Origin: Sphingomonas sp. Y38-1Y
GTDB taxonomy: Bacteria; Pseudomonadota; Alphaproteobacteria; Sphingomonadales; Sphingomonadaceae
DNA length: 64,000 nucleotides
Direction: 5' to 3'
Assembly (NCBI RefSeq): GCF_032391395.1
Contig: NZ_CP135916.1
Span: 124,001 to 188,000, forward strand
The notes under the pieces were generated by a model. It was not told the DNA's origin. It searched no databases and saw only the letters and a list, made by a program, of their open reading frames with translations. The stretch's first letter is position 1. Each line of letters begins with the position of its first letter. Below, one piece after another: positions 24,878 through 43,826 of this stretch. The position numbers and the translations under genes are program-made.

Positions 24878-25321
24878 TTAGCCGGCGATCGCCTTCCAGA
24901 TCGTCACGGTGCCGGCATCGCCATCGACGCGCACCCGGTCGCCGCTCTCGATCAGCGTCAAGGGATCGCCGTCGAGGTCGGTGACGGAGGGCACGCGCAT
25001 CACCACGCAGCCGAGCGCGACCTTGGTCGTCATCGTCGTGAACACCATGCCGATCGGTGCGGTGCCGGCGAGCCGGGCGGTGTGGAACACGCCGGACCAG
25101 CCCGACGATCCCTTGGCGCCGGGAAAGACGAGGATCTTGCCGGCGAAGCTCACGCCCTTCAGCTCGTGGCGCGTCTCGATCACCGTGCCCGTCATCGCAG
25201 CGACGCCGCCCCAGCCGGAGATCGTCTCGCGCGTGACCAGCGCCTCGCCCTCGACGATGCCGCCGACGACCCTGCGGCCGGTGAGGACGATCGGCGGGCG
25301 CTCCAGCGTGAGCTCGCTCAT
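24878..25321 (-). CDS. Aconitase X small (swivel) subunit
   Basis: The 147-aa protein starts at ATG 25321, overlapping the stop of the large subunit (ATGA). It carries the swivel-domain hallmarks of two-subunit aconitase X: TISGWGGVAAMTG (about 33-45) and ILVFPGAKGSSGWSG. Aconitase X enzymes are Fe-S dehydratases; characterised members act on cis-3-hydroxy-L-proline or, in archaea, on mevalonate 5-phosphate. With the large subunit it should form a heterodimeric dehydratase. The substrate here is probably different, given the sugar-acid enzymes around it. Confidence 0.88.
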   Translation of the reverse strand: MSELTLERPPIVLTGRRVVGGIVEGEALVTRETISGWGGVAAMTGTVIETRHELKGVSFAGKILVFPGAKGSSGWSGVFHTARLAGTAPIGMVFTTMTTKVALGCVVMRVPSVTDLDGDPLTLIESGDRVRVDGDAGTVTIWKAIAG

Positions 25322-26613
25322 GCCGCCAGCCTCCCTGCCCATTTGCTCGTACACGCCGCGTCGATGCACTCGGCGGTCGTGCCGTACCAACCCTCGATCC
25401 CCATGATCGCGGGCAGGTAATGGACCTGCTTGGCGCTATCCAGCGCGGCGACGCGGGTGCCGGGCGGCACCGCCTGGCTGATCGAGGAACAGGTGTCGGT
25501 CATCAGCCGCGCACCGGCGCGCTCCAGGATGCGGGTGAAGCCGCTCGCGCCCGCGGTCGCCTTCACCGCGCGCGAGGTGAAGATCCACAGCGCCGAGTTG
25601 GCGGAGACGCTGCGCCCCTCGATCAGCTGCGCAGCCTCCGCAATCTGCTCGATCGAGTAATGCGGACAGCCGAGCATGACGAAGTCGACATCGGTCGACG
25701 CACCGACGCTGTTGAGCCGCTCGTATGTCCGCGCCCGCGCCGCCGCGTCATAGACGAAGGTCTCGCCGGGATTGCCGCCGCCGAACGCGTGCTCGGCGGT
25801 GGGCGCCTCGGGCGTGATGCCCGCCATGTGGTACATCTCGACCCCGCCCGACGACGCCGCCGCGGCGCCGAAATGCTTGTGGCGAATGAGGCTGGGCGAC
25901 CCGATCGCGCCATCCAAGACGGGGATCGTGTCGAGCACCGCGTCGCCGGTGAAATAGCCGAGCATGCCCCATTCGAACACGTCGTCCACCGGTACCTCGA
26001 CGCGCACCGCATGCTGCCCGCGCCGAAAGTCGTCGCGGTGAAAGCCCCAGTCCGGGATGCGCTTGGTCAGCATCGCCGCCGACGTCGACTCGCGTCCCTC
26101 GCAATTGGTGCGTCCGCCGATCACCGAGTTGCAGAAGACGACCGCCGAGCTTTCCATCCAGGCGCAATGCTCGCCCATCACGGGGACGTTGCCGGCCAGA
26201 TAGGGCGTGCAGGTCTTCAGCACCTGGATGCCGTGTGCCGCCACCTGCCCCTCGTCATAGACGAAATTGTCGTGCTGCGCGTCGGTCATGCCCTGCTCGC
26301 GCCACAGCATCGGGTCCATGCCGCCCTGAAGGTGACAGGCGATGCCGGCGTTCATCCGCGGCACGTCGACGACATCGTCCGAATCGAGGTCGAAGCGCGA
26401 GAAGATCGCGCGGTAATCGCCGCCATCTTCCTTGTAATAGTTCTTGAGCCAGGGCGTCGAGGAGCCCGGGACGCCGGCGATGTTGTTGGTCTCGACCAAG
26501 CGATCCGCGCCCAGCGCCTCGGCATAGCGGATCAACAGGTTCATCGCGCGCGCGGTCGCGTCGCCCTGGGCGCCATCCAGCATCGCGCGCTCGGCATCGG
26601 TGAGTTGGACCAC
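25318..26613 (-). CDS. Aconitase X large (catalytic) subunit
   Basis: The 431-aa protein starts at GTG 26613 behind AAAGGAG. It has the full length and layout of the aconitase X catalytic subunit: VQLTDAERAMLDGAQGDATARAM at the N-terminus, TNNIAGVPGSS near residue 42, KTCTPYL, MLGCPHYS and TDTCSSISQ as candidate Fe-S Cys sites, and SKQVHYLPAIMG near the end. The segment TNNIAGVPGSS differs from the SAHVSG-type segment I recall in proline-type members, which hints at another substrate. A GRTAGC dyad lies 17 bases upstream, so the pair can be transcribed separately from the rest of the operon. Confidence 0.88.
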   Translation of the reverse strand: MVQLTDAERAMLDGAQGDATARAMNLLIRYAEALGADRLVETNNIAGVPGSSTPWLKNYYKEDGGDYRAIFSRFDLDSDDVVDVPRMNAGIACHLQGGMDPMLWREQGMTDAQHDNFVYDEGQVAAHGIQVLKTCTPYLAGNVPVMGEHCAWMESSAVVFCNSVIGGRTNCEGRESTSAAMLTKRIPDWGFHRDDFRRGQHAVRVEVPVDDVFEWGMLGYFTGDAVLDTIPVLDGAIGSPSLIRHKHFGAAAASSGGVEMYHMAGITPEAPTAEHAFGGGNPGETFVYDAAARARTYERLNSVGASTDVDFVMLGCPHYSIEQIAEAAQLIEGRSVSANSALWIFTSRAVKATAGASGFTRILERAGARLMTDTCSSISQAVPPGTRVAALDSAKQVHYLPAIMGIEGWYGTTAECIDAACTSKWAGRLAA

Positions 26614-26629
26614 GATCGCTCCTTTGGTC

Positions 26630-26643
26630 GGTAGCTTGCTATC
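26630..26643. promoter_or_regulatory. GRTAGC dyad before acnX genes (candidate MarR operator, site A)
   Basis: GGTAGCTTGCTATC is a near-perfect dyad of GRTAGC half-sites around two bases. It lies between the MarR gene and the aconitase X genes, 17 bases before the GTG. A 13-of-14 match is found at 33685-33698. Confidence 0.55.
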
Positions 26644-26686
26644 TCTTCAACATACGATCCGCCGCCGGCCAGGGCAGCCGCGACCG

Positions 26687-27307
26687 TCAGCGGATCTCGT
26701 CGAGCTTGCGCAGGATGTCGGACAAGACCTCGAGCGCGATCTCCAGCTTGTCGCGGTCGATGTCGCCCAGCACCTCGCGGCGCAGGCCGTTGCTGATCTC
26801 CATCAGGTCGGCGATCACCTGCCGGCCCTTGGGCGTGATGCGGTTGATCGTCTGGCGCCGGTCGCTCTCGCGCTGCTGGCGCTCGATCAGCCCGTCACGT
26901 GCCAGCACGTCGAGCATCCGCACCATCGTCGGCCCCTCGACCGAGATGAGGTGCGCCAGGTCGCTCTGCGTCAGCTCGTCCCCGGTGAAGGCGACGAGGA
27001 ACAACGTCTCCCACCGTGCCATCGTCTGGCCGGTGACCTTGACGCGTTCGTTGGCGAGCTTGCGCCAGCGCCGTGCGGCGGTGACGATCGAGCGCGTCGT
27101 GCGAAAGAACTGGTCGTCCTCGCTCGAGGCCTCGAAATAGCTGTGATAGTTGATGAGGTGCCGCTCGGCCTTTTCGACCGGATCGGTCCGCACCTTGGCG
27201 GGCTTCACCGCCCGCGGATAGGGCTTGGGGCCGCGCTTCTGAAGCGAGCGCGGCCCGCGGCGTGGCGTCTCGTTCGCGCCCGTCGCTGCATCGTCGTCGT
27301 CGGCCAT
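26687..27307 (-). CDS. MarR-family transcriptional regulator
   Basis: The 206-aa protein starts at ATG 27307 (GAGGGCC before it); ATG 27316 is an alternative. A basic, charged N-terminal extension of about 60 residues precedes the MarR winged-helix core: FRTTRSIVTAARRWRKLANERVKVTGQTMARWETLFLVA, the recognition helix ELTQSDLAHLISVEGPTMVRMLDVLARDGLI, and a wing with RQQRESDRRQTINRITPKG. MarR proteins are usually ligand-relieved repressors of nearby catabolic genes. Its place inside the operon, with three shared candidate operators around it, makes it the likely local regulator. Confidence 0.92.
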   Translation of the reverse strand: MADDDDAATGANETPRRGPRSLQKRGPKPYPRAVKPAKVRTDPVEKAERHLINYHSYFEASSEDDQFFRTTRSIVTAARRWRKLANERVKVTGQTMARWETLFLVAFTGDELTQSDLAHLISVEGPTMVRMLDVLARDGLIERQQRESDRRQTINRITPKGRQVIADLMEISNGLRREVLGDIDRDKLEIALEVLSDILRKLDEIR

Positions 27308-27351
27308 GGCCCTCATCCTAGGGATGTGATCGCGTCCTGACAAAGCCGGTC

Positions 27352-29022
27352 TCACGCATCCAGGTCGGTAAGGACCGCGCCCGTCGCCATCGACTGCACG
27401 TCGCGGCGATAGATGCCGAGATAGCCGTCGGCAGGAACGGCATAGGCGTTGCTGGCCGATCCCGGCCGCCGCGCGAGCTCGTCCGCCGGCACGTCCAGGT
27501 CGAGCTGGCGCGCGGCCACGTCGATGACGATGCGGTCGCCGTCGAGCACGCGGCCGATCGCGCCGCCCACCGCGCCCTCCGGCGCGACCTCGGCCACCGT
27601 CAGCCCTTTCAGGCACAGGCCCGACAACTGGCCGTCGGTGACGAAGGCGACGTCCTTGGCCAGGCCCGCGGCATCGATCGCGAACAGGACGTGGCTCGCG
27701 CCGCCGCCCATCGCCGGCCCGCCCTTCAGCCCCTGGCCGTGCAGCACGACGACGTCGCCCGCGACGATCGACCCTGCCTTGATCGCAGCCATCGCGTCGG
27801 GCGTGCTGTCGAACACGCGCGCGCGGCCCGTGAACGCCTCCGGCCGGGTGCCGTCGCGGATGCCGAGCTTCACCACCGCGCTTTCGGTGGCAAGGCTGCC
27901 GCGCAGGATCGCGATCGCGGGCCCGGCCGAAACCGGATCGTCGATCGGCCGGATGATCGCGGGATCGGCAATCTCGGCGCTGGCAAGATCCTCGCCGAGC
28001 GTCCGTCCGCTCGCGGTCGTGACATCCAGGTCGATGATCGACGAAAGCTGCTTCAGCACCGCACGCGCGCCACCCGCATCCTCGAACTGCTCGATCCGTA
28101 CCTCGCCATTGGGGCGCACGGCGCTCAGGATCGGGACCTTGCGGCCCATCTCTTCCCAGATCGCGAACAGGTCGATGTCGGTATGACCCTCGACCGCCGT
28201 CGCCTGAAGATGCTTGATCGCGTTGATCGAGCCCGAGACCGCCAGCACCATCGCGGCGGCGTTGCGGAACGCGCCCTCGGTCATGATCGCGCGGGGGGTG
28301 AGCCCCTCCTCGACCATGGCGACGATGCGCGTGCCCGCCTCGCGCGCCTTGTCGAACATCTTGTCACTGTTGGCGCGGACAGGGGCGGAGCCCGGCACGC
28401 ACATGCCCAGCGCCTCGACCACGCAATGCATGGTGTTGGCGGTCGCCATGCCCGCGCACACGCCCGGCCCCAGGATCGCCTGCTCGGCCATTGCCTCCAT
28501 CGAATGGCGGCCGGGCTTGCCCAGCGCTGCGCCGACCCCGCCGGAGAACAGGTCCTCGATATCGACATGCTCGCCGTCGATCATTCCCGACGCCTGATAG
28601 CCGCCGATGACGAGCAAGGTCGGGATGTTCAGCCGCATCGCCGCCATCAGATGCCCCGGCGGCGTCTTGTCGCACGAGGTCAGGCAGACCATCCCGTCCA
28701 GCATCGCCGCCTCGACCTGCGCCTCGATATCGTTGGTGACGAGGTCGCGAGCGGCGAGGATGTAGCTCCCCTTCTTGGCCGCACCGGTGATGAAGTCTGA
28801 CGGCGCGGTCGTGCGCACCTCGAACGGGATGCCGCCCGCCGCGCGGATCGCGTCCTTCACCACCCGCGCGACGCCATCCAGATGCGCGAAGCAGACGGCG
28901 AGCTCCGACGAGGAGTTCACGACTGCGATCTTGGGCTTTTCCATGTCGGCGGGCGACAGGCCCAGCGCCCGCCAGTGCGCGCGGCGGACGGGGGTGTTGG
29001 CGGCAAGGCTGCGGAGCGTCAT
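27352..29022 (-). CDS. IlvD/Edd-family sugar-acid dehydratase (copy 1)
   Basis: The 556-aa enzyme starts at ATG 29022 (GAGGAAC before it). Three Cys match the Fe-S ligands of the family: Cys44 (SELAVCFAHLDG), Cys117 (LTSCDKTPPGHLM) and Cys189 (GPGVCAGMATANTMH). The Gly-rich GQGLKGGPAMGGGASHVLFA and TDGQLSG segments near the C-terminus are also typical. Members dehydrate dihydroxy-acids; the closest functional relatives by motif are the pentonate/aldonate dehydratases rather than IlvD. It is a close paralogue of the gene at 30438-32102; the transporter gene lies between them. The exact aldonate is unknown. Confidence 0.92.
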   Translation of the reverse strand: MTLRSLAANTPVRRAHWRALGLSPADMEKPKIAVVNSSSELAVCFAHLDGVARVVKDAIRAAGGIPFEVRTTAPSDFITGAAKKGSYILAARDLVTNDIEAQVEAAMLDGMVCLTSCDKTPPGHLMAAMRLNIPTLLVIGGYQASGMIDGEHVDIEDLFSGGVGAALGKPGRHSMEAMAEQAILGPGVCAGMATANTMHCVVEALGMCVPGSAPVRANSDKMFDKAREAGTRIVAMVEEGLTPRAIMTEGAFRNAAAMVLAVSGSINAIKHLQATAVEGHTDIDLFAIWEEMGRKVPILSAVRPNGEVRIEQFEDAGGARAVLKQLSSIIDLDVTTASGRTLGEDLASAEIADPAIIRPIDDPVSAGPAIAILRGSLATESAVVKLGIRDGTRPEAFTGRARVFDSTPDAMAAIKAGSIVAGDVVVLHGQGLKGGPAMGGGASHVLFAIDAAGLAKDVAFVTDGQLSGLCLKGLTVAEVAPEGAVGGAIGRVLDGDRIVIDVAARQLDLDVPADELARRPGSASNAYAVPADGYLGIYRRDVQSMATGAVLTDLDA

Positions 29023-29035
29023 TCGGTGTTCCTCA

Positions 29036-30403
29036 TCAGGAGGCGGGAAGCGGGTCGGCGGGGAGCGGCGCGGGCGTGCGCGTGCGGCGCACGACGGTCG
29101 CGATGGTAATCGCCGACACCGCCAAGATGGCGGGACAGAGGGCGAGGATGGCGAAGCTGCGCACGATCGGCAGTCCGCTGGCGAGCACATAGGCGCCGAT
29201 CACCGGCCCGCCGATCCCGCCGAGCTTGGCGACGGAGGTCGCCCAGCCGCCGCCGTTCGCGCGGATCGCGCTCGGATAGAAGACGCTGGCGATCGAGAGG
29301 ATGCCGAAATGCGCGCCGCCGATGAAGGTCGTCGAGATCAGCGACAGGAGGAGGAAGCGATCGGGCGCCAGCGGCACCAGCCCCACGACCAGCAGCATCG
29401 GCGCGGCGATCATCGGATAGACCGCGACCGCGAACGGCCCGAACCGGTCGGTGAAGCGCATCAGAAGGAGGCCGAGCATCGCCCCGAGCACGCCCGACAG
29501 CGACGACACATAGGCGGCCGTCTCTCGCGAGAAGGCGAGGTCCTCATAGACCAGCGGACCCCAGTTCGCCTTGAAATAGACCGCCAGCGTACTGGCGATA
29601 TAGCCGATCCAGAGCACCGGGGTGAGCAAAGCCAGCCGCCCCTCGAACAGCTTCGACACCTTGAAATTGCCCGTATCGATCCGCTCGTCGCCCAGCACGA
29701 AGCGGTCGTTCGCGGTTGCGCCGATGGTCGGGTCGAAGTCGTTGAGCGTCCTGGCGATCAGGTCGGGGCGCATCTGCTTGGTCGCTAGGAACCGCACCGA
29801 TTCGGGGAGCCATTTCGCCAGCAGCACCGCGCAGACGAGCGTGCAGCCGCCGCCGAACACGAACACGCCCTCCCACCCGAATTGCGGCGCGAGCCATACG
29901 GTGACGGGGCCGGCGAGCGAGCTGCCCAGGCTGTACCCCATCATGATGATCGTCACGACGGTCGAGCGCATCTTGGACGGGACGAACTCGATGTTGAGCG
30001 CCCAGGCGATCGGCAGCATCCCCCCGATCGCGAACCCGTCGAGGAAGCGCAGGATCAACAGCGCTTCATAGCTGCGCGCGAGCGCCGTTGCCGTCGTGAG
30101 GATGCCGAACGCGAACGCCGCGCTGACGATCGTCCGCCGCCGCCCCAGCCGGTCGCCGATATAGGCGAAGGCAAAGCCCCCCACCATCATGCCGATGATC
30201 CCGGCCGAGAAGATGTTGCCGAGCTGGATGCGATCCAGCGACAGCTCGTCGCGCATCCACGGCGCGGTGAAGCTGATCATCATCATGTCGAACCCGTCGA
30301 ACACGGTGATGAGCCACGACAGCGCGATCAGCTTGTAGTTGAAGGGGCCGAGCTTTCGCCCGTCGATCAGCTTGGCGACGTCCAGCACGCGGGCTTCGGC
30401 CAT
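29036..30403 (-). CDS. MFS transporter, AAHS (aromatic acid:H+ symporter)-like
   Basis: The 455-aa carrier starts at ATG 30403 (GGAG 8 bases upstream; the GTG just before it is less likely). It has about 12 membrane segments, VFDGFDMMMISF in the first membrane segment (the D-G-x-D pattern of PcaK-type symporters), GDRLGRRRT between segments 2 and 3, and LPESVRFL in the central loop. It lies between the two dehydratases with 13- and 34-base gaps, so it should import the substrate of the pathway. The AAHS branch mostly carries aromatic acids, quinate and related hydroxy-acids, which bears on the substrate question. Confidence 0.9.
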   Translation of the reverse strand: MAEARVLDVAKLIDGRKLGPFNYKLIALSWLITVFDGFDMMMISFTAPWMRDELSLDRIQLGNIFSAGIIGMMVGGFAFAYIGDRLGRRRTIVSAAFAFGILTTATALARSYEALLILRFLDGFAIGGMLPIAWALNIEFVPSKMRSTVVTIIMMGYSLGSSLAGPVTVWLAPQFGWEGVFVFGGGCTLVCAVLLAKWLPESVRFLATKQMRPDLIARTLNDFDPTIGATANDRFVLGDERIDTGNFKVSKLFEGRLALLTPVLWIGYIASTLAVYFKANWGPLVYEDLAFSRETAAYVSSLSGVLGAMLGLLLMRFTDRFGPFAVAVYPMIAAPMLLVVGLVPLAPDRFLLLSLISTTFIGGAHFGILSIASVFYPSAIRANGGGWATSVAKLGGIGGPVIGAYVLASGLPIVRSFAILALCPAILAVSAITIATVVRRTRTPAPLPADPLPAS

Positions 30404-30437
30404 CACTCTACTCCACGCGAAAAGGCGGTTTCCGGCA

Positions 30438-32102
30438 TCATGCGGTGGGGATCGTCACCGCCCCCTTGGACATCGGCTGCACGTCGCGGCGATAGGCGGC
30501 GAGATAGCCGGTGGCGGCATTCGGGTAATTCTGATTCCAGGGCCGCGCGTCGAGCTCGGCCGGCGCGACGTCGATGTCGAGGCTGCGCGCCGGCACGTCG
30601 ATGACGATCCGATCGCCATCGCGTACGCGCGCCAGCGGCCCGCCCACCGCCGCCTCGGGCGAGACCTCGGCGACGGTCAGTCCCTTCAGGCACAGGCCCG
30701 ACAGCTGGCAGTCGGTGATAAAGGCGATGTCGCGCGCCAGGCCCGCCGCATCGATCGCGAACAGCACCAGGCTGGCGCCGCCGCCCATCGCCGGCCCGCC
30801 CTTGGGCCCCTGCCCGCGCAGGATGACGACGTCGCCCTTGGCGATCGCCTGCCGCTCGATCGCGGCCATCGCGCTCGGCGTGTCCTCGAACACGCGCGCG
30901 CGCCCCTCGAAGCGGTCGGGCCGCTTGGGGTCGCGCACGCCCAGCTTCACGATCGCGCTCTCGGGGGCGAGGCTGCCTTTCAGGATCGCGATCGACGGCC
31001 CTTCCGAAATCGGCCGGTCGAGCGGGCGGATGATGTCGGCGTCGCCATCCGGCTGCGCGTCGAGCACGGCGCCGAGCGGCTGGTTCATGCAGGTCTGCGC
31101 GGTCAGGTCCAGGATCGGCGCCAGCCGCTTCATCGTCGCCGCGGCGCCGCCGGCATCCTCGAACTGCTCGATGCGGACGGGGCCGTTGGGGCGCACCGCG
31201 CTCAGCACCGGCACCTGGCGCCCGACCTCGTCCCAGATCGCGAACAGGTCGGCGTCGGTGCCGGCCTCGACCGCGACGGCCTGCAGATGCTTGATCGCGT
31301 TGATCGATCCCGACACGGCGAGCGTCACCGCGGCGGCGTTGCGGAACGCGGCTTCGGTCAGGATGGTGCGCGGCAGCAGCCCTTCCTGAACCATCGCGAC
31401 GATCCGCGCGCCGGCCTCGCGCGCCTTGTCGAACATCTTGTCGCTGTTGGCGCGCACGGGGGCGGAGCCGGGGATGCACATGCCCAGCGCCTCGACGACG
31501 CAATGCATGGTGTTGGCGGTCGCCATGCCGGCGCAGACGCCCGGTCCCCGCACCGCCTGCGGCACCATCGCCTCCAGCGGGAACTTCGCCTTGCCGCCGA
31601 CGCGCTCGGCGATCGTGCCCGACCACAGGTCTTCCAGGTCGACGGGCTCGCCGTCGATCGCGCCCGAGGCCTGATAGCCGCCGATCACCAGGATCGTCGG
31701 AATGTTGAGCCGCGCCGCCGCCATCAGATGCCCGGGCGGCGTCTTGTCGCAAGAGGTCAGGCAGATCATGCCGTCGAGCAGCGCCGCCTCGACCTGCACC
31801 TCGATGTCGTGCGTGACGATGTCGCGCGCGGCGAGGATGTAGCTCCCCTGCTTGCCCGCGCCGGTGATGAAGTCGGACGGGGCGGCGGTGCGCACCTCGA
31901 ACGGCACGCCGCCCGCGGCGCGGATCGCGTCCTTCACCACCTTGGCCACGCCATCCAGATGCGCGTAGCAGACCGCGAGCTCGGACGAGGAATTGACCAC
32001 CGCGATCTTGGGCTTGAGGAGGTCCGCCTCGCTCAGCCCCAGCGCGTGCCAGTGCGCCCGGCGCGACGGCGAATTGGCGGCTAGGCTGCGCAGCTCGGGC
32101 AT
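30438..32102 (-). CDS. IlvD/Edd-family sugar-acid dehydratase (copy 2)
   Basis: The 554-aa enzyme starts at ATG 32102 behind GAGGAGAG; upstream in-frame sequence is not supported. Fe-S ligand Cys are at 45, 118 and 190 in the same contexts as copy 1, and most of the sequence aligns without gaps. Differences cluster around residues 160-185 (substrate-lid region: WSGTIAERVGGKAKFP versus FSGGVGAALGKPGRHS) and in the C-terminal third (residues 350-400). This suggests two related enzymes with different substrates rather than a recent duplicate. It follows the FAD oxidoreductase gene by 53 bases. Confidence 0.92.
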   Translation of the reverse strand: MPELRSLAANSPSRRAHWHALGLSEADLLKPKIAVVNSSSELAVCYAHLDGVAKVVKDAIRAAGGVPFEVRTAAPSDFITGAGKQGSYILAARDIVTHDIEVQVEAALLDGMICLTSCDKTPPGHLMAAARLNIPTILVIGGYQASGAIDGEPVDLEDLWSGTIAERVGGKAKFPLEAMVPQAVRGPGVCAGMATANTMHCVVEALGMCIPGSAPVRANSDKMFDKAREAGARIVAMVQEGLLPRTILTEAAFRNAAAVTLAVSGSINAIKHLQAVAVEAGTDADLFAIWDEVGRQVPVLSAVRPNGPVRIEQFEDAGGAAATMKRLAPILDLTAQTCMNQPLGAVLDAQPDGDADIIRPLDRPISEGPSIAILKGSLAPESAIVKLGVRDPKRPDRFEGRARVFEDTPSAMAAIERQAIAKGDVVILRGQGPKGGPAMGGGASLVLFAIDAAGLARDIAFITDCQLSGLCLKGLTVAEVSPEAAVGGPLARVRDGDRIVIDVPARSLDIDVAPAELDARPWNQNYPNAATGYLAAYRRDVQPMSKGAVTIPTA

Positions 32103-32155
32103 CGACTTCACTCTCCTCACTCGGGCCGGGCTTGGTGCCGGCTCCACTTTGTTGC

Positions 32156-33634
32156 TCAGGCGCGCGCGGCCCTGGCCGGTTCGGCCGTCGTCTCGGTGCG
32201 ATCCTGAAGGAACACGCCCTGGTCGCGAAGCACCGCCTGAAGCTCGGCCACGTCGACCGCGCGCGGCTGGACGCCGGCCTTCGCCGCCAGCGCCGCCGCC
32301 GCGCCCGCCGCCTGGCCGGTCAGCCAGCATTGCGGGATCTCGCGCAGGAAGCCGTGCGAATTGGCATCGCACGAGATGTGCCGCCCGCACGCGAGCAACC
32401 CGTCCAGCCGCCGCGGCACCAGTGCGCCATAAGGGACCGAGATGACCGGGAATTTGGGCGAAACCGACGGGCTCACGCCCACCTCGTCGGCATGCACCGC
32501 GCCGCTCGACCAGTTCGCGCGCTCCACCCGGTCGACACCCGCCAGCCGCCGCGTATGCCGCACGCCGAGCTGCGGCGCGCTTTGCAGCATGTATGCATCC
32601 TCGAAGCCCGGCGCGTTGGCGCGGAAGAAGTCGCAATGGCTCGCCATGAAGCGGTGCGAGCGGATCTCGATCTCCGTCATCTCGTCGACGTCAAGCGCCG
32701 ACAGGCCCGTCTGCCGCGGGCCCAGGAACAGCGCGATGTCGTCGCGCCACGACACATAGGGCGCCTGGAAGAAGCCGAGTTCCTGCCGCCCGCGCTGCAC
32801 GAATGCCGAATAGCGCTCCGGATCGGCGGCGCGAAAGTCGAGCCAGCGCGGCATGTCGACGCCGCCCAGCATGAAGGCGGTGTTCATCGAATGATGCGTG
32901 TCGGCCGGCTCGATGTCGTTGTCAAAATCGGCGCCCGCGCGCGCGAACATGTCGCCGTCGCCCGTCGCATCGACGACGACCTTAGCCATCATCGCCTGAC
33001 GCCCGGCCTTGCTCTCGAAATAGGCGCCGCGCACCTGCCCGTCCTCGACGATCGGCAGCGCCGCCCAGCCGTGAAAGACGAGGCGCACGCCCGCTTCGAT
33101 CAGCATTTCCTGCGACACGAGCTTCAATCGTTCGGGATCGATCGTCGGCGACCAGGCGACGATGCCGTGGAACGCGGCGGTCCGCTGCTGCCAATAGGCG
33201 GCGAGCGCCGGGTCCTGCGATCCCCATTGATTGGGGCCTGGCCCCGCGACGCCCTCGGGCGGGAGCCGCGACAGCACTTCCTCGGCAAAGCCGCGGATGA
33301 CGGGACGGCCGGTCCAGTCGGTCATCCGGTCGATCCAGATGACGAGACCGCCGGTCGAAAGCCCGCCCAGATGATTGTACCGCTCGAGCAGCACGACGTC
33401 CGCGCCCGCCTTTGCCGCGGCATAGGCGGCGGCCGATCCCGACGGGCCGCCACCGACCACCAGCACGTCGCACTGGTGATAGATCGGCACGTCGCGCGCC
33501 GGCTCATGATGCGTACCCTCGCCATTGCGCGGCGGCAGCGTGCGATCGCGCTTTTCGAACAAGTCGGAGGTAAGGATCCGGTCCTCGGTCCGCTCGACGC
33601 TCTGCACTTTCGGATTGACTGGCTGCTCGGACAT
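32156..33634 (-). CDS. FAD-dependent oxidoreductase
   Basis: The 492-aa protein starts at ATG 33634 (AGAGGCG upstream). After about 54 polar residues comes an FAD-binding Rossmann motif CDVLVVGGGPSGSAAA (55-70), then LLERYNHLGGLSTGG. The FAD-family C-terminal segment LLACGRHISCDANSHGFLREI leads into TGQAAGAAAALA. This is the FAD_oxidored-type fold, not the GMC type. No signal peptide is present, so it acts in the cytoplasm. It is the first gene of the reverse-strand operon and would carry out the oxidation (or reduction) step before dehydration. Donor and acceptor are unknown. Confidence 0.88.
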   Translation of the reverse strand: MSEQPVNPKVQSVERTEDRILTSDLFEKRDRTLPPRNGEGTHHEPARDVPIYHQCDVLVVGGGPSGSAAAYAAAKAGADVVLLERYNHLGGLSTGGLVIWIDRMTDWTGRPVIRGFAEEVLSRLPPEGVAGPGPNQWGSQDPALAAYWQQRTAAFHGIVAWSPTIDPERLKLVSQEMLIEAGVRLVFHGWAALPIVEDGQVRGAYFESKAGRQAMMAKVVVDATGDGDMFARAGADFDNDIEPADTHHSMNTAFMLGGVDMPRWLDFRAADPERYSAFVQRGRQELGFFQAPYVSWRDDIALFLGPRQTGLSALDVDEMTEIEIRSHRFMASHCDFFRANAPGFEDAYMLQSAPQLGVRHTRRLAGVDRVERANWSSGAVHADEVGVSPSVSPKFPVISVPYGALVPRRLDGLLACGRHISCDANSHGFLREIPQCWLTGQAAGAAAALAAKAGVQPRAVDVAELQAVLRDQGVFLQDRTETTAEPARAARA

Positions 33635-33684
33635 TGCGCCTCTTGATCGCTCCCCTGAGACCAGCATCCATGCCGACCTGATTA

Positions 33685-33698
33685 GGTAGCTTGGTATC
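33685..33698. promoter_or_regulatory. GRTAGC dyad before FAD oxidoreductase operon (site B)
   Basis: GGTAGCTTGGTATC matches site A at 13 of 14 positions. It lies 51 bases upstream of the FAD oxidoreductase ATG on the reverse strand, in operator position for the whole reverse operon. Confidence 0.55.
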
Positions 33699-33777
33699 TT
33701 TCTAGACTCGACAGTGTCAACGGCGGGATTAGCCCACACGACGTTTTTTCTGGCTAAACCACTGATATATAGCAGTG

Positions 33778-33808
33778 AAAAAATAGGTAGCTTTGATAGC
33801 TATTTTTT
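33778..33808. promoter_or_regulatory. AT-rich inverted repeat with GRTAGC half-sites before large TonB receptor (site C)
   Basis: AAAAAATAG (33778-33786) and CTATTTTTT (33800-33808) form a perfect 9-bp inverted repeat enclosing GGTAGC (33786-33791) and GATAGC (33795-33800); a further GATAGC is at 33832-33837. It lies about 80 bases before the receptor ATG (33886). It is the most AT-rich spot of the region and likely covers the receptor promoter. Confidence 0.5.
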
Positions 33809-33885
33809 CTTGTCAGCGCCGCGTCCGGTTTGATAGCTTTCTTCCGAACGCGACAGAGTGCGCGATGCCAGAGAGGATCGACATC

Positions 33886-36843
33886 ATGCCCGCCCCCTAT
33901 CGTTCGACGCTCGCCGGTGTCAGCGCCGCCGCCCTTCTCGCCGCGCTCGCCGGCGCTCCGGCCCATGCGCAGGACGCGCCCGCCGCGCCCGTCGCCGGGA
34001 CACCGCAGGACGCGGCGACTCAGGACAGCCCCGCCGATACCGCGCCCGCCGGCGTGACCGACGGCGCGGTCGAGGACATCGTCGTGACCGGCACGCGCCT
34101 CGGCGGCGGCTTCTCCGCGCCCTCGCCCGTCTCGGTGGTCGGCACCGCCCGGCTGGAGCAGCGCGGCATCGCCAACGTCGCCGACGCGCTCAACGAAGTC
34201 CCCGCCTTTCGCGCGTCGAACACGCCTGCCTCGGGCGAGCTCAATCCCAATGCGGGCTATGTCGGCGGCCGCATCCTCGACCTTCGCGGCCTTGGCGCGG
34301 TCCGCACGCTGACGCTCGTCGACGGCAAGCGCTTCGTCCCCTCGACGACGCAGGCGACGGTCGACACCAACATGATCCCGTCGATCCTCTTGGAGCGGGC
34401 CGAGGTCGTGACCGGCGGCGCGTCCGCGCAATATGGCTCCGACGCGGTCGCGGGCGTCGCCAACCTGATCCTCAATCATCGGCTGGAGGGCATCCGCGCG
34501 ACCGCACAGACCGGCGTCACCAAATATGGCGACAACGGCAACGTCACCATTGGGCTGGGCGCCGGCACCCGCATCGGCGACAATGTCCGCTTCGTCATCG
34601 GCGGCGAGTATGAGAACAGCCAGGGCATCGGCGATTGCCAGGCCCGCCCCTTCTGCCGGACAGAGGTGCTGAACTTCGGCCGGAATCCCGGCTATCTCGC
34701 GCTGCCCGCCAACAACATCCTCGGCGACGTGCGCCCCTCGACCGTGCCGTTCAACGGCGTCACCGTGCCGCCGACCGCCGCCTATTCCGGCCGGCCGACG
34801 CCGCTGCTCCGACCGATCGACGGCATCACCTTCGGTCCCGACGGCACGCCGCGCCGCTTCCAGTACGGTTCGCTCGTCAACAACCTCTACATGGTCGGCG
34901 GTGAGGGCGAGGGGCGGAACGCCTATTTCAAGGACCTGTATTTCAGCGCCCCGCTGGAACGCTATGCCGTTACCGCCAATGTCGATTGGGAAGTGTCGCC
35001 CGGCCTCACCTTCTCGCTGATGGGCAATTACGGCCATCTGACGTCGAGCTACAGCGCGACGGTCTATCGCAACCCCAACTTCACCATCCGCAACGACAAC
35101 CCGTTCCTGCCGCGCTCGTCCGATCCCAGCCTCGATATCCCGACGCTGCTCGCACAGGGCAATCTGACCTCGTTCCAGATGGGCAAGGGCTTTGTCGAGC
35201 TCGGCCGGCCCGACATCACCACCAACAACGACCTCTACCGCATCGTCGCCTCGGTAAAGGGAACGATCTCGTCGCGCTTCGACTGGGACGCCTATTACCA
35301 GTACGGCCGCAACGAATTCCGCAACGACGTGACCAACCACACGATCACGTCGCGGATGCTGCTGGCGCTCGACGCGGTCCGCGATCCGAGCGGGCAGATC
35401 GTCTGCCGCGTCAATGCCGACGCCAATCCCGCCAACAACGACCCGAACTGCGTCGCCTTCAATCCCTTCGGCCAGCAATCGAGCCAGGCGGCGCGCGACT
35501 ATGTCACCGCTGATGGCTTCCAGACCAACAACACGACGCAGCACGTCGTCGCCGGCAACATTCGCGGCAAGCTGTTCGACCTGCCCGCCGGTGCCGTCGC
35601 GATCGCGGTCGGCGGCGAGTATCGCTCGGACAGCGTCCAGGGCGATGCCGACGATCTCTCCCGCTCGCTCGCCTTCTTCTCGGCCAACGGCTCGCGCGTG
35701 TCGGGCAAGATCGAGGTGGTCGAAGGCTATGTCGAGGGCGAGATCCCGATCCTGCGCGGCGAATCCTTTGCCAACGAGCTGAGCATCAGCGGCGCGATCC
35801 GGCGCACGCGCTACAACCGGTCGAGCGAGCTTGCGCCCTCCTCCGACCTCAGCGTCACCACCTACAAATACGGCGCGGTGTACGAGCCGATCCCCGCGAT
35901 CCGCTTCCGCGCCACCAATTCGCGCGACATCCGCGCGCCCAATGTCAGCGAGCTGTTCGGCCCGACCACCGCGATCAGCGGCATCGTCACCGATCCCTCG
36001 CGCGGCGGTGCGCAGACCAACCCGCGCATCTTCAGCGGCTCGAACCCCTCGCTTCGCCCGGAGCGTGCCGACACCTTCACCGCGGGCGTCGTGCTGAAGC
36101 CGTCGGGCGGCTTCCTCGGCCGCTTCCGCGCCTCGATCGACTATTACGAGATCAAGGTGGACGACGCGATTGCGACGCTGGGCCAGCAGAACATCGCGAC
36201 CCGCTGTTTCGAGGGGCTGCAAAGCGCGTGCGACCTGATCGTGCGCGGCGCCGATGGCAGCATCACCCAGGTCACCGACGTGCTCCAGAACGTCAACGAG
36301 GTCATCAACCGCGGCGTCGATGCCGAGATCGAGTATCGCCAGCCGCTGGGAGCCTTGGGCGACGTCAATTTTCGGCTGCTGACGACCTATGTGAAAGACT
36401 TCATCACCGTCGATGCGGTCGGCGCCACCAACCGCGCGGGCCAGACCGGGCTTCGCGGCGGCACGCCCGCCGGCCTGCCGGACCTCGTCCTCGACGGGCT
36501 GGTCAGCTGGACGCTCAACAACTTCACGCTCAACGCCCACGGCCGCTTCATCAACAGCGGCTTCTACAACGCCGCGTTCGTGGGGCCGGAGCAGGACGGC
36601 TATGACCAGAACCTGGTCAACAGCTCCAGCACCAACGCGGTCCCCTCGCGCGGCTATCTGGACCTGCTCGCGCAGTACAAGCTCGACTATGGCCCCGACC
36701 GGTCGTTCACCGTGTTCCTCGGCATCGACAACGTCACCAACACGATGCCGCCGCTCAATCCCGGCTCGCACGGAACCGGCAACGCCATCATCTTCTCGCC
36801 CTTCGGCCAGACGTTCAAGGCGGGGCTTCGCCTGAACTACTGA
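33886..36843 (+). CDS. Large TonB-dependent receptor
   Basis: I choose ATG 33886 (AGAGAGGA 8 bases before it; ATG 33865 is possible), giving 985 aa with a signal peptide ending APAHAQ. After an Ala/Pro/Asp-rich linker comes the TonB-box area DIVVTGTRLGGGFSAPSPVS. The plug has ILDLRGLGAVRTLTLVDGKRFVPST and VVTGGASAQYGSDAVAGVANLIL, typical of the large receptors that sphingomonads and Caulobacter use for carbohydrates and plant-derived compounds. The barrel ends FKAGLRLNY. A Cys pair (DCQARPFCR) lies in a loop. It diverges from the FAD oxidoreductase operon with matching operator sites and precedes three isomerase genes, so it likely imports the pathway substrate. Confidence 0.93.
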   Translation: MPAPYRSTLAGVSAAALLAALAGAPAHAQDAPAAPVAGTPQDAATQDSPADTAPAGVTDGAVEDIVVTGTRLGGGFSAPSPVSVVGTARLEQRGIANVADALNEVPAFRASNTPASGELNPNAGYVGGRILDLRGLGAVRTLTLVDGKRFVPSTTQATVDTNMIPSILLERAEVVTGGASAQYGSDAVAGVANLILNHRLEGIRATAQTGVTKYGDNGNVTIGLGAGTRIGDNVRFVIGGEYENSQGIGDCQARPFCRTEVLNFGRNPGYLALPANNILGDVRPSTVPFNGVTVPPTAAYSGRPTPLLRPIDGITFGPDGTPRRFQYGSLVNNLYMVGGEGEGRNAYFKDLYFSAPLERYAVTANVDWEVSPGLTFSLMGNYGHLTSSYSATVYRNPNFTIRNDNPFLPRSSDPSLDIPTLLAQGNLTSFQMGKGFVELGRPDITTNNDLYRIVASVKGTISSRFDWDAYYQYGRNEFRNDVTNHTITSRMLLALDAVRDPSGQIVCRVNADANPANNDPNCVAFNPFGQQSSQAARDYVTADGFQTNNTTQHVVAGNIRGKLFDLPAGAVAIAVGGEYRSDSVQGDADDLSRSLAFFSANGSRVSGKIEVVEGYVEGEIPILRGESFANELSISGAIRRTRYNRSSELAPSSDLSVTTYKYGAVYEPIPAIRFRATNSRDIRAPNVSELFGPTTAISGIVTDPSRGGAQTNPRIFSGSNPSLRPERADTFTAGVVLKPSGGFLGRFRASIDYYEIKVDDAIATLGQQNIATRCFEGLQSACDLIVRGADGSITQVTDVLQNVNEVINRGVDAEIEYRQPLGALGDVNFRLLTTYVKDFITVDAVGATNRAGQTGLRGGTPAGLPDLVLDGLVSWTLNNFTLNAHGRFINSGFYNAAFVGPEQDGYDQNLVNSSSTNAVPSRGYLDLLAQYKLDYGPDRSFTVFLGIDNVTNTMPPLNPGSHGTGNAIIFSPFGQTFKAGLRLNY

Positions 36844-36851
36844 CGCGATCG

Positions 36852-36900
36852 CGACGGGGGCGCGCGGCGTCGGAAATCGCCGACCCGCCGCGCCCCGTCG
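36852..36900 (+). terminator. Long GC-rich stem-loop after TonB receptor gene
   Basis: An outer imperfect stem (about 36852-36868 with 36886-36900, GC-rich with a small bulge) encloses an inner perfect stem GTCGG (36869-36873) and CCGAC (36880-36884). It starts 8 bases after the receptor TGA. There is no T-run, so it may attenuate rather than fully stop transcription into the isomerase genes. Confidence 0.5.
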
Positions 36901-37033
36901 ATCGAGCGTGCACGGCCGCGATTGATTACCGCGCCGCGCCGACGTAATAGCGGCGCACAAAATAGCGGGATCGACCCGCCAGGCATACGGATGCGCGGGC
37001 GCATCACGGGGCCGTAGAATGGGAAGGGATCCT

Positions 37034-37807
37034 ATGTCTGCGGCTTACCCACTATCCTCTTGCATCGAATGGCAGTTCGTCGAGGCCGGCGATCTCGACG
37101 CGCGGCTGCGCGCGGCCAAGGCTGCCGGGTTCGAGCTGGCCGAATTCCACCTGTGGCGCGACAAGCCGGTCGAGGCGCTGGCGACCGCGCTGGACGAAAC
37201 CGGCATGCGCCTGACCAGCCTGTGCGTCGATCCGCGCCGCTCGATCGTCGACCCCGCCCAACGCGAGGAGATGGTGACCGCGGTGCGCGAGACGATCGCA
37301 GCGACCGCGATCCTCGGCAAGCCGAACCTGATCGTCGCCTCGGGCTTCCGCGTCGAGGGCATGAGCGAGGACGAGCATTTCGCCAACGCCGTCACCGCGC
37401 TGCGTGAGGCAGCGGACGCGGCCGAGGCGGCGGGCGTGATGCTGCTGCTCGAACCGCTCAACACGCGCCTGTTCGCGACCATGTACCTGGTCAGCACCAA
37501 GCTCGGCCTCGACCTGATCGAGGCGGTGAACAGCCCCAACCTCCGCCTCCTCTACGACGTCTGGCACAGCGCCGTCATGGGCGAGGACATGGCCGAGGTC
37601 CTGGCGGGGCGCATCCACCTGGTCGAGCATGTGCAGGTCGCCGACATGCCCGACCGCAACGAGCCCGGCACCGGCAGCGTCGACTGGGACCAGGTCACGC
37701 GGACGCTGCGCGGCCTTGGCTACACCGGCGCGATCGGCCTCGAATATTTCCCGACGATGCCGATGGACGAGTCGCTGGCGCTCTCTCAGCGCACGCTCGC
37801 CGACTGA
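37034..37807 (+). CDS. TIM-barrel isomerase (hydroxypyruvate isomerase / xylose-isomerase-like)
   Basis: The 257-aa protein starts at ATG 37034 (GGAAGGGATCC before it). It is a single AP-endonuclease-2-type TIM barrel with metal-ligand candidates Glu140 (LLLEPLN), Asp175 and His178 (LLYDVWH), Gln201 (EHVQVADMPDRNEPGTG) and Glu237 (IGLEYFP). The DRNEPGTG loop is the hydroxypyruvate-isomerase signature. It could isomerise a hydroxypyruvate-like or 2-keto sugar acid. It is the first of three TIM-barrel genes in a row, all forward. Confidence 0.88.
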   Translation: MSAAYPLSSCIEWQFVEAGDLDARLRAAKAAGFELAEFHLWRDKPVEALATALDETGMRLTSLCVDPRRSIVDPAQREEMVTAVRETIAATAILGKPNLIVASGFRVEGMSEDEHFANAVTALREAADAAEAAGVMLLLEPLNTRLFATMYLVSTKLGLDLIEAVNSPNLRLLYDVWHSAVMGEDMAEVLAGRIHLVEHVQVADMPDRNEPGTGSVDWDQVTRTLRGLGYTGAIGLEYFPTMPMDESLALSQRTLAD

Positions 37808-37840
37808 GCCTCTTGCATCCCATTTGAACGGACCCGCGTG

Positions 37841-38797
37841 ATGAACAGCGATCGGATTGCGATCAGCCTCGACCTGATCAACCGCCATTACCAGGAGCCG
37901 AACCGAAACCGGTTTGAGAGCAAGTATTTCTGGGAAGAACTCTATCCTCTGATCCGCGCGAGCGGATTTCGCTCGATCGAGATCCCCTATGAACCCGTGT
38001 GGCAGTTCGGCGGACGCAGCGGCGTGCCGATGAACCGCTATTGCATCAACACCAAGTACGAGAGCGCCGCCAATTACCGGACGGTGCTGGCGGACGCCGG
38101 CATCGATCGGGTGACGGGGGTCACGTTCGACCCCAACCTGTTCATGCGCAACGACAATCTCGATTTCTTCTTCGGCGCGTCGGGCCATTTCGCGGGTGAG
38201 GCACTGGCCCATGCCGCCGACCTCGGCGCCGATTACTTCGCGATCAGCCCGTCGCCCTTCTATGGCCGCGCCGCGCATTATCATCCCGATCTAGAGGCGA
38301 AGCGCGAGACGTTCGCCGCGCGCACGACCGATCTGCTCGGCGGCCTCGCCGAGAAGGCGGCGGCCTCGGGCGTCACGCTGGTGCTTCGCAACGAATATTG
38401 GAGCCTGTTCCGCGGGGAACAGATCCTGTCGCTACTGGACGCGCTGCCCGACGGCGTGAAGCTCGATATCGATGCGGCGACGCTGACCATCGCCGGCATC
38501 GATCCCAAGCCGTTCATCGAGGCGCATCAGGCGCGGATCGGCTGCGTCCACCTGACCGACACCGATTTCGTCGACGCGGACGAGACGTGGAAGACCGCGA
38601 ATCCCGAATTCCCGGCCGCGCGCGCGACACAGGTGTTCCGCGATCCGGGCACTGGATCGGTCGACCTGGCGGGCATCGTCTCGCTGCTCGATCGCCTTGG
38701 CTATCAGGGGCCGGTCGTCGCCAGCGCCCGTCAGACGCGCGATCCGTTCCGCGCCTTGCTGCGGACCCGCGCCCTCCTCAACCAATTCGCGAACTGA
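37841..38797 (+). CDS. TIM-barrel sugar isomerase/epimerase-like protein
   Basis: The 318-aa protein starts at ATG 37841 (the GTG directly before it is an alternative; the ribosome site is weak). Features are IEIPYEPVWQFGG near residue 48, a ligand-type segment LVLRNEYWSLFRG near 184, KLDIDAATLTIAG, CVHLTDTDFVD and FRDPGTGSVDLAG. It belongs to the AP-endonuclease-2 TIM-barrel superfamily (sugar isomerases/epimerases, inosose and dehydroshikimate dehydratases). Two strand ends lack the usual Glu/His pattern (VVASARQ replaces the usual xxxE), so its chemistry may differ from its neighbours. The substrate is unknown. Confidence 0.8.
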   Translation: MNSDRIAISLDLINRHYQEPNRNRFESKYFWEELYPLIRASGFRSIEIPYEPVWQFGGRSGVPMNRYCINTKYESAANYRTVLADAGIDRVTGVTFDPNLFMRNDNLDFFFGASGHFAGEALAHAADLGADYFAISPSPFYGRAAHYHPDLEAKRETFAARTTDLLGGLAEKAAASGVTLVLRNEYWSLFRGEQILSLLDALPDGVKLDIDAATLTIAGIDPKPFIEAHQARIGCVHLTDTDFVDADETWKTANPEFPAARATQVFRDPGTGSVDLAGIVSLLDRLGYQGPVVASARQTRDPFRALLRTRALLNQFAN

Positions 38798-38807
38798 GGC
38801 TCAGACG

Positions 38808-39731
38808 ATGCCCAACATCCGCTACGCCAACATGTGCCACTGGAAGGCGATCCCGTACCGGCAGATCGAGAACTTCCGCGACTTCTATTACGAGGACAAG
38901 ACCAATACCGCTTATTATTCGGACTGGGACAGGATCCTGAAGTACCAGGCGGCGCTCGGCTTTGACGGGATCGAGATCGCGCCCTGGGATCTGTCCGACA
39001 TCCTGCCGCTGTTCGGCTCGCCCGAGAACTTCGCCGCCTTTGCCAAGGACCGCGGGGTCGAGGTGATCGGCATGTTCCACGGCGCCCACGCCTCGCACGA
39101 CGCCGGCCATGAGGAAGAAGCGATCCGCGCGGGCCGCGAGGCGGTGGACACGATCGTCAAGTTCGGCGGCAGCTACATGAACACCTGCCCCACGCAGAAT
39201 TACTGCGGCACCGGCCCACTGAGCCACGAAGAGGTGCAGCAATGCGCCAAGGTGATGAACGCCATCGGCGAATATGCCACCGACAACGGCGTGAAGATCG
39301 GGCTGCACAACGAGTTCTTCTGCGCGATCAACCTGCCCAACCACCGGCAGCTGATCGAAACGACCGATCCGCGCTATGTCCATTATTGCCTGGACACCGC
39401 ACAGGTCGCGATCCTGGGTGAGGACATCCTCACCTTCTACAAGGATTATCACGACCGCATCAGCACCTTCCACCTCAAGGACACCGCGTCGGCGTTCCAG
39501 CCCGACAGCGTCCGCTATTCGCGCGATCCGGAGATCACCGACGACGGCACGCGCTGGTTCTGGGAGCCGGGTCTGGGCGAACTCGACCTCGAAGGGCTGT
39601 ATCGCTTGCTCAAGGAGCATGAGTTCAAGGGCTGGATGTCGATCGAATATGACGGGTCGCCCGACATGCTCGCCTCGATGGCGCTGACGCGCTTTCACCT
39701 CGATACGGTGCTGCGGCCCATCTACGACTGA
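38808..39731 (+). CDS. TIM-barrel sugar isomerase/epimerase (IolE/IolI-like superfamily)
   Basis: The 307-aa protein starts at ATG 38808 (TGAGGC 8 bases before it, overlapping the upstream stop). Metal-ligand candidates are Glu169 (GLHNEFF), Asp196 (YCLDTAQVA), His222 (STFHLKDT) and Glu280 (MSIEYDG), a complete set for the isomerase/dehydratase superfamily that includes inosose dehydratase. Paired Cys near 127 and 133 (NTCPTQNYCG) are unusual. It is the last gene of the forward operon, followed by a terminator. With the oxidoreductase, it could handle a keto-sugar or keto-cyclitol. Confidence 0.87.
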   Translation: MPNIRYANMCHWKAIPYRQIENFRDFYYEDKTNTAYYSDWDRILKYQAALGFDGIEIAPWDLSDILPLFGSPENFAAFAKDRGVEVIGMFHGAHASHDAGHEEEAIRAGREAVDTIVKFGGSYMNTCPTQNYCGTGPLSHEEVQQCAKVMNAIGEYATDNGVKIGLHNEFFCAINLPNHRQLIETTDPRYVHYCLDTAQVAILGEDILTFYKDYHDRISTFHLKDTASAFQPDSVRYSRDPEITDDGTRWFWEPGLGELDLEGLYRLLKEHEFKGWMSIEYDGSPDMLASMALTRFHLDTVLRPIYD

Positions 39732-41795: not shown

Positions 41796-42377
41796 GTGCG
41801 AATCGCGATCATCGATACCAGTGAAACGCGGGCGGCGATCATCGCCGATGGGCTTCGCGACGCCGGGCTGGACGATCAGGTGGTGATCGACCCCGCCGGC
41901 CCGCTCGCGCGCCAGATCGAGGCGTGCGCGCCGGAGGTCGTGCTCATCAACCTGGAGAACCCCAGCCGCGACCTGCTCGAGGATTTCTTCGCCATGTCGC
42001 GCGTGCTGGGCCGGCCGATCGCGATGTTCGTCGACCAGTCCGATGCCGAAAGCGCGCTTGCCGCCGTCGATGCGGGCGTGTCGGCCTATGTCGTCGACGG
42101 GCTGGCGCGCCAGCGGATCAAGCCCGTGCTCGACGTCGCGATCCGACGCTTCCAGGCGTTTTCGCGATTGCAGGCCGAGCTGGCCGAGGCGAAGACGGCG
42201 CTGGCCGACCGGCAGACGATCGACCGGGCCAAGGCGATCCTGATGCGCCGCCGCGGCATCGACGAACCTGCCGCCTATGCACTGCTGCGCGGCCACGCGA
42301 TGCAATCCAACCGCCGCATCGCCGAAGTGGCCGAGGCGATCGTGACCAGCGAGGCGCTGATGGGAGACCTGCCATGA
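41796..42377 (+). CDS. nasT: NasT: ANTAR-domain nitrate/nitrite response antiterminator
   Basis: The 193-aa protein starts at GTG 41796. A receiver-like domain (IIDTSETRAAIIADGL at the N-terminus, VVLINLENP with the phospho-site region, AGVSAYVVDGL) is joined by a helix to a C-terminal ANTAR domain (ADRQTIDRAKAILMRRRGIDEPAAYALLRGHAMQ). ANTAR proteins bind paired hexaloop RNA hairpins and prevent termination. NasT is held inactive by NasS until nitrate or nitrite is present. The next gene is nasS (ATGA overlap), and the cognate RNA target lies at 43643-43796. Confidence 0.94.
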   Translation: MRIAIIDTSETRAAIIADGLRDAGLDDQVVIDPAGPLARQIEACAPEVVLINLENPSRDLLEDFFAMSRVLGRPIAMFVDQSDAESALAAVDAGVSAYVVDGLARQRIKPVLDVAIRRFQAFSRLQAELAEAKTALADRQTIDRAKAILMRRRGIDEPAAYALLRGHAMQSNRRIAEVAEAIVTSEALMGDLP

Positions 42378-43570: not shown

Positions 43571-43642
43571 CGATCGGCGTGCAAATGCTGCAACTGCGAA
43601 AACCGCTTGTGCCGCGACCGCGAATCAGGCACCTTGATGGTC

Positions 43643-43701: not shown

Positions 43702-43748
43702 TTCCGCTGACGGAAACGCCGGCACCGCCGGCATCCGACGAGGCAACG

Positions 43749-43796: not shown

Positions 43797-43826
43797 CTAT
43801 TTCCGGTTCAGCCGAGGGGACGGGCG

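Follow-up and report, generated by a model that had tools for sequence, protein, structure and literature searches.

Among the catabolic genes of Sphingomonas sp. Y38-1Y, a run of eleven raises the question of whether genes that lie together and diverge from one gap also work together. The run is located in the stretch of 64,000 nucleotides analyzed here (the window; G000:C1:124001-188000, where G000 is the source genome, a single contig of 3.58 Mb), and positions below are those of the window unless preceded by C1 or a locus label. A first-pass annotation, made from the sequence, had treated the run as one unassigned regulon. Gene calling, carried out afresh (lengths are given as called), and profile scans agree with it on the coordinates, 24878–39731, and on the arrangement of seven reverse-strand and four forward-strand genes, with a single divergent gap (33635–33864) between the genes for a flavoprotein and a TonB-dependent receptor. 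The run is nevertheless very probably two modules that abut: module 1 (24878–36843), which includes a two-subunit aconitase X (AcnX), two IlvD-type dehydratases, the flavoprotein, a carrier, a regulator and the receptor, and module 2 (37034–39731), which consists of three TIM-barrel genes. Module 1 is quite likely a single acid-degrading regulon, and the two-module account as a whole, without insistence on the order of the steps, is reasonably likely to be correct.

Module 2 comprises, on the forward strand, TIM-A (37034–37807; hydroxypyruvate-isomerase-like; PF01261, 138 bits), TIM-B (37841–38797; a divergent barrel; PF01261, 57 bits) and TIM-C (38808–39731; IolE-like; PF01261, 100 bits). Its separation from module 1 is seen in both directions: the flavoprotein and, likewise, AcnX are found in 0/6 of the other genomes that carry TIM-B, and TIM-B is found in 0/21 of the other AcnX or flavoprotein genomes, in a search where the identical query at an equal threshold recovered G000 and the six others as a positive control. 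Orthologues of TIM-A, TIM-B or TIM-C are likewise absent from all of the 80 flavoprotein loci described below (0/80). Because of this reciprocal absence the one-regulon reading of the eleven genes is rejected, and the neighborhood-conservation check that the first-pass annotation had itself proposed returned, for the TIM trio, its outcome of two unrelated loci. A single pathway, in which the flavoprotein would oxidize a glycoside or cyclitol, the TIM barrels would cleave or isomerize the product and the dehydratases would finish, draws on the adjacency of the genes in G000, on the shared direction of the TIM and TonB genes and on other TIM barrels that adjoin the flavoprotein in loci L049, L051 and L156; set against the absences just given, and with no candidate operator ahead of the TIM genes, it is highly improbable.

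Module 1, in contrast to its union with module 2, is a conserved unit. A flavoprotein alignment scan of named genomes confirmed 328 matches, of which the best 80 loci were used (14 of them shorter than 15 kb), with orthologues defined as clusters at 35% identity; among these 80, IlvD occurs in 36, the AcnX large subunit in 28, either in 43 and both in 21, with the AAHS-like carrier in 20 and a TfdA-like dioxygenase in 12. In a sample of 396 Sphingomonadales genomes, 17 have AcnX large (E ≤ 1e-40) and 16 have the flavoprotein (E ≤ 1e-60); the overlap is 11 genomes where 0.69 would be expected (10 shared if G000 is left aside). The two genes lie no more than 20 kb apart in seven of these ten double carriers and on different contigs in three. 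When only AcnX of at least 75% identity is counted, the flavoprotein is present in 11 of 12 genomes; the one genome without it, G254, carries MarR and AcnX next to a different PF12831 protein, and has a TfdA-like gene at a further 3.6 kb. Among 61 close-relative genomes a full-length flavoprotein of high identity is present only in G000, with paralogues of about 35–40% identity in G033.

Gene order tells the same story of a unit. A Sphingomonas metagenome-assembled genome (HJP_bin13, L028) has the order of the window with one IlvD: TonB, divergent flavoprotein, IlvD, carrier, MarR, AcnX large and AcnX small; G592 (L143) repeats this order with proteins 99–100% identical to those of L028. L145 carries TonB, carrier, IlvD, AcnX large, AcnX small and flavoprotein, all in one direction; L061 and L058 carry AcnX, MarR, IlvD, TonB and divergent flavoprotein, with the carrier only in L061; and L140, which by its coordinates is Sphingobium sp. 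SYK-6, carries TonB, carrier, MarR, AcnX large and AcnX small. Outside the sphingomonads, AcnX and often IlvD adjoin the flavoprotein in Burkholderiales loci, together with TctC receptors and IclR, and in L048 (Rhizobiales) AcnX and IlvD occur with genes that look by eye like the TRAP type. A Burkholderiales-type AcnX/flavoprotein/TctC block also occurs in L082, a metagenome-assembled record titled Akkermansia muciniphila that is possibly mis-binned. The earlier proposal of an unassigned hydroxy-acid regulon built on AcnX, IlvD, flavoprotein, AAHS-like carrier and TonB receptor therefore stands for module 1; no described pathway with this set was found, and a full-text search of one open-access library (bioRxiv excluded), judged by titles and the starts of abstracts, gave no paper on it among the matches listed.

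The AcnX genes are adjacent on the reverse strand: the small (swivel) subunit (24878–25321; 147 amino acids) scores 87 bits against PF01989 (cut-off 27) and the large subunit (25318–26613; 431 amino acids) 338 bits against PF04412 (cut-off 31.5). The large subunit was aligned to 7cnr and to cis-3-hydroxy-L-proline (C3LHyp) dehydratase, with active-site residues taken from PMC8184944; its Fe-S cysteines are conserved, as are the residues that hold the hydroxyl and carboxylate (Glu, Ser, Lys and Tyr). Three Cys, Glu154, Ser155, Ser156, Lys395 and Tyr399 are invariant in 29/29 large subunits, and PGAKGSSGWS is invariant in the 23/23 small subunits called. Fold family, two-subunit build, Fe-S cysteines and carboxylate/hydroxyl-binding residues are thus shared with the characterized type II enzymes; the differences lie in the residues specific to each and in gene context, which is unlike that of either C3LHyp dehydratase or phosphomevalonate dehydratase. 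Asp203, specific to C3LHyp dehydratase, is not conserved, its position falling on Pro49 or a gap region (with an inferred numbering offset of 10), and the Thr72 position was read as Gly74 of the small subunit by a by-eye match of the GS-S motif, as distinct from an AtAcnX alignment. From the phosphate site of the type IIb phosphomevalonate dehydratase (Gly48-Val49-Ser50-Asn53) Gly and Val are kept, and Ser50 and Asn53 are probably replaced by Pro and Ser, as read by ungapped extension past the alignment. Because the catalytic residues are kept and the Asp203 position is not, the window AcnX should, on these residues, act as a dehydratase or hydratase on some beta-hydroxy acid that is not hydroxyproline. 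PMC8184944 gives no known role for four of the six subclasses of type II AcnX. At 26338–26358 the large subunit reads RMNAGIACH, one residue more than the RMNAFSCH of six sphingomonad relatives, either a genuine change or a compensated frameshift.

The remaining reverse-strand genes of module 1 encode a MarR/SlyA-type regulator (26687–27307; 206 amino acids as called; PF01047, 42 bits), IlvD-A (27352–29022) and IlvD-B (30438–32102), both Fe-S dehydratases (PF00920/PF24877) and 74% identical to each other, an AAHS-like MFS carrier (29036–30403) and the PF12831 flavoprotein oxidoreductase (32156–33634; 492 amino acids; PF12831, 268 bits; model predicted local distance difference test score, pLDDT, 87); the TonB-dependent receptor (33865–36843; 992 amino acids; PF00593/PF07715) lies on the forward strand and adjoins the flavoprotein in L028, L058, L061 and L064 as well. 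The first-pass annotation had taken both dehydratases for aldonate enzymes, which the profile scores (obtained for IlvD-A, with IlvD-B not scored in its own frame) do not bear out for IlvD-A: the best NCBIfam matches of IlvD-A are dihydroxy-acid dehydratase models (PRK00911, 466 bits, below the cut-off of 644), against 303 bits for the L-arabinonate dehydratase model (below its cut-off of 882). The closest solved relatives of IlvD-A are also dihydroxy-acid dehydratases (6ovt, 4e-85; 6nte, 9e-84), from which it differs in falling under the NCBIfam cut-offs. Further IlvD/Edd-type genes elsewhere in G000 are 33–36% identical. The top NCBIfam model of the carrier is TIGR00895 (aromatic acid/H+ symport; 320.8 bits, below the cut-off of 418.55), and the flavoprotein matches cyclohexane-carboxylate desaturase models weakly.

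Several further observations concern the flavoprotein family. SYK-6 has two copies (L053 and L067; their 503 and 495 amino acids align globally with 458 matches), one beside a TauD-like gene and the other beside TonB and LysR genes. A second PF12831 subgroup (L147:7687-8985 and L048:18514-19827, 51% identical to each other) adjoins AcnX and MarR in L147, a locus that lacks the usual flavoprotein, and lies between AcnX and IlvD in L048. At L037:13126-14651 two GST-like genes stand, by eye, beside a flavoprotein, an AAHS-like carrier and a GMC oxidoreductase, a pair that we take to be reminiscent of lignin beta-etherases. Electron-transfer flavoprotein, considered as the electron acceptor on the basis of cluster sizes in Neorhizobium and in L039, was dropped on finding that the neighbors look by eye like Era- and LepB-type housekeeping proteins. 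AsdA was likewise dropped as a relative; PMC12911418 describes it as resembling p-nitrophenol 4-monooxygenase, a judgment by description and not by direct comparison.

Common control of module 1 is suggested by a candidate operator. Comparison of intergenic gaps yielded GGTAGCTTGSTATC-like sites, and the stricter pattern RTAGMTTKSTAY was drawn from the window sites together with L058 and L061. Exactly two matches to RTAGMTTKSTAY occur in the 64 kb, where 0.01 are expected, both on the forward strand: GTAGCTTGCTAT at 26631–26642 in the AcnX/MarR gap and GTAGCTTGGTAT at 33686–33697 in the flavoprotein/TonB gap. The sharing of operators claimed earlier thus extends to these two gaps but not to the TIM genes, ahead of which no RTAGMTTKSTAY match was found in a search of the whole window. 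The pattern recurs in the gap upstream of TonB in L058, L061, L064 and L140, two of which were not used to build it (L064, in the TonB-flavoprotein gap, and L140 of SYK-6, 237 bases ahead of the called TonB start); among 148 loci it was found in no others besides these and the short G000 loci. The looser GGTAGCTTGSTATC, with up to three mismatches, gives five matches against 2.9 expected, which is chance level. A GC-rich hairpin 3' of TonB and before TIM-A (36852–36900, forward strand; −48.3 kcal/mol) is a possible transcript end, and weak evidence of one because its z is only −1.9 and it has no T run.

A second half of module 1 lies at another place in the genome. Beside the module 1 genes, L028 has a TonB receptor, a carrier, a TfdA-like dioxygenase, a 2-hydroxyacid dehydrogenase and a kinase, and G000 has counterparts of the dioxygenase (65% identity) and kinase (62%) at C1:736-739 kb, 580 kb from the window half, in a block ordered TonB-carrier-dioxygenase-dehydrogenase-kinase-DUF3237 (TonB and carrier by eye). 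Both halves are contiguous in a sister genome, G530 (L142), as kinase, dehydrogenase, dioxygenase, carrier, TonB, MarR, AcnX small and large, MarR and flavoprotein, and no TIM barrel occurs in the 20 kb of that locus. The closest PDB matches of the G000 kinase are D-glycerate 3-kinases (1e-19), and the top models of the L028 dehydrogenase are glyoxylate reductase and GhrB, under cut-off. For the L028 dioxygenase the closest PDB entries are the 2,4-dichlorophenoxyacetate (2,4-D) and phenoxypropionate dioxygenases, TfdA-type 2-oxoglutarate enzymes (5j92, 5bke); the gene of the G000 orthologue lies outside the window. A DUF3237 gene (L118:7866-8354; PF11578, 148 bits) stands directly 3' of the glycerate-kinase-like gene.

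The best mechanism that we infer for module 1 is a CoA-free route that degrades a hydroxylated carboxylic acid and leads finally to D-glycerate. The TonB receptor and AAHS-like carrier would import the acid, and the MarR-type protein would repress through the candidate RTAGMTTKSTAY sites. The flavoprotein may form or reduce a C=C or C=O bond near the acid group, AcnX, with two subunits and an Fe-S cluster, would dehydrate or hydrate a beta-hydroxy acid that is not activated by CoA, and IlvD would convert a 2,3-dihydroxy acid to a 2-oxo acid. From the distant half, the TfdA-like dioxygenase, an Fe/2-oxoglutarate enzyme, could then split off glyoxylate or hydroxypyruvate, which the 2-hydroxyacid dehydrogenase and the D-glycerate-3-kinase-like enzyme would pass to glycolysis via D-glycerate. 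This order of steps and these roles are offered tentatively, and we hold them to be rather doubtful in detail.

A number of observations weigh against the account given so far. Neither AcnX nor IlvD of the clusters used is present in 37/80 flavoprotein loci, and the co-occurrence counts are raw, with kinship ignored. IlvD is missing from the 20 kb of L142; it may be dispensable, or its gene may lie elsewhere. The whole of G000 holds three RTAGMTTKSTAY matches against one for a reversed control pattern, the third (C1:1486359-1486370, GTAGATTTCTAC) being unexplained; L064 has gene sizes like those of L061 and is probably its close kin; and RTAGMTTKSTAY is absent from L028, L118 and L142, so that the distant half is not shown to be under the same control. 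As for the division between the modules, a hydroxypyruvate/2-oxo-tetronate-isomerase-like barrel lies near the flavoprotein in L049 and L051 (31 and 29% identical to TIM-A) and another TIM barrel follows it directly on a Variovorax plasmid, so TIM-A could still have been recruited.

Other substrates for module 1 have to be considered. If it degraded a simple sugar acid (an aldonate, a tetronate or an aldarate), the flavoprotein would oxidize an alcohol, IlvD would give a 2-keto-3-deoxy acid and AcnX would be a further dehydratase. The glycerate-type enzymes of the second half would suit such a route, as would L049 and L051, which carry beside the module PdxA and tartronate semialdehyde reductase (both over cut-off), a weak D-threonate-kinase-type match and the 2-oxo-tetronate-isomerase-like barrel, just under cut-off. 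By profile score, however, IlvD-A resembles dihydroxy-acid dehydratase more closely than it does L-arabinonate or xylonate dehydratases, such a route would leave the TfdA-like enzyme without a task, and profile scans reveal no aldolase among the eleven genes; a sugar acid is therefore unlikely, if not negligibly so. More doubtful still is a quinate- or shikimate-like substrate, a cyclic acid with several hydroxyl groups. Besides the weak desaturase-model match of the flavoprotein, what speaks for it is a Variovorax paradoxus plasmid on which a flavoprotein gene of 65% identity is clustered with genes for alpha/beta hydrolases, a shikimate-dehydrogenase-like protein and a TIM barrel that matches QuiC weakly, but this is a single supporting locus, and quinate, to our knowledge, lacks a beta-hydroxyl for AcnX; the Variovorax locus is a lead for a cyclic-acid variant. 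That AcnX is simply a C3LHyp dehydratase is barely credible: the large subunit has this as its top-scoring NCBIfam model, but at 210 bits against a cut-off of 700 and with the Asp203 position not conserved, and no proline-pathway genes were noticed in the gene lists, in which no search was aimed at them. The hydroxy-acid route described above is preferred to all of these.

Module 2 points to a different chemistry. TIM-A scores 155 bits against TIGR03234 (cut-off 353), and the closest solved relative of TIM-C is IolE (3cny, 3.9e-12), with a weak match to 2-hydroxy-3-keto-glucal hydratase (8ro4, 6.6e-4). TIM-B has 323 homologues at 1e-5, and all named ones among the 120 matches listed are sphingomonads; it is present in 7/397 family genomes, and in the six other than G000 TIM-C adjoins it in all and TIM-A in three. 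The beta subunit of C-glycoside deglycosidase (CGDB, PF19906) is found in 7/7 TIM-B genomes against 24/397 overall (0.42 expected), no more than 13 kb from TIM-B in five of the six other genomes and on another contig in the sixth. The G000 deglycosidase locus, at 3.570–3.585 Mb, has, by similarity, the beta and alpha subunits, a GMC oxidoreductase and GFO/IDH and, by eye, a GH3-like gene. The TIM unit would thus act on 3-keto sugars from keto- or C-glycoside cleavage, together with the deglycosidase locus at 3.57–3.58 Mb. It resembles the described C-glycoside/3-keto-glycoside elimination loci (CGD, dgp, OGE) in this company and proximity, and differs in that TIM-A, TIM-B and TIM-C are not CGD subunits. 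The keto- or C-glycoside route suggested by the first-pass annotation is thereby upheld for the barrels, which co-occur with the deglycosidase, and not for a flavoprotein that feeds them. In at least 95 of the 120 TIM-B homologues listed the last barrel strand ends SARQ, at a position where TIM-C has Glu (SIEYD); from the residues, one of the metal ligands usual in this fold seems to be replaced in TIM-B.

The flanks of the run look unrelated to either module: an M61 peptidase (reverse strand), another TonB receptor (22518–24692, reverse strand), a Na/H exchanger and, on the forward strand from 41796, a set of ANTAR, NMT1_2 and MFS genes. In the last of these an ANTAR regulator, an NMT1_2 protein and an MFS carrier are consecutive (41796–45062) and presumably resemble a nitrate-assimilation set.

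For genome reading the locus carries a caution: two modules that are kept apart in relatives were joined by being neighbors in a single genome. The TIM trio adds a three-barrel unit to the C-glycoside field. Module 1 may represent a widespread CoA-independent route by which a substituted hydroxy acid, ether-linked perhaps or cyclic, is degraded. An uncharacterized AcnX subclass would then be the catabolic dehydratase, coupled with an IlvD homologue and a PF12831 flavoprotein, and a TfdA-like enzyme would release hydroxypyruvate or glyoxylate; we regard this as possible, though short of probable. If true, it would be the first function of AcnX outside hydroxyproline and mevalonate metabolism. 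Within module 1 AcnX has partners that are conserved and a regulator for which there is a candidate operator; hosts are available from culture collections, and the role of AcnX can therefore be tested by induction and growth.

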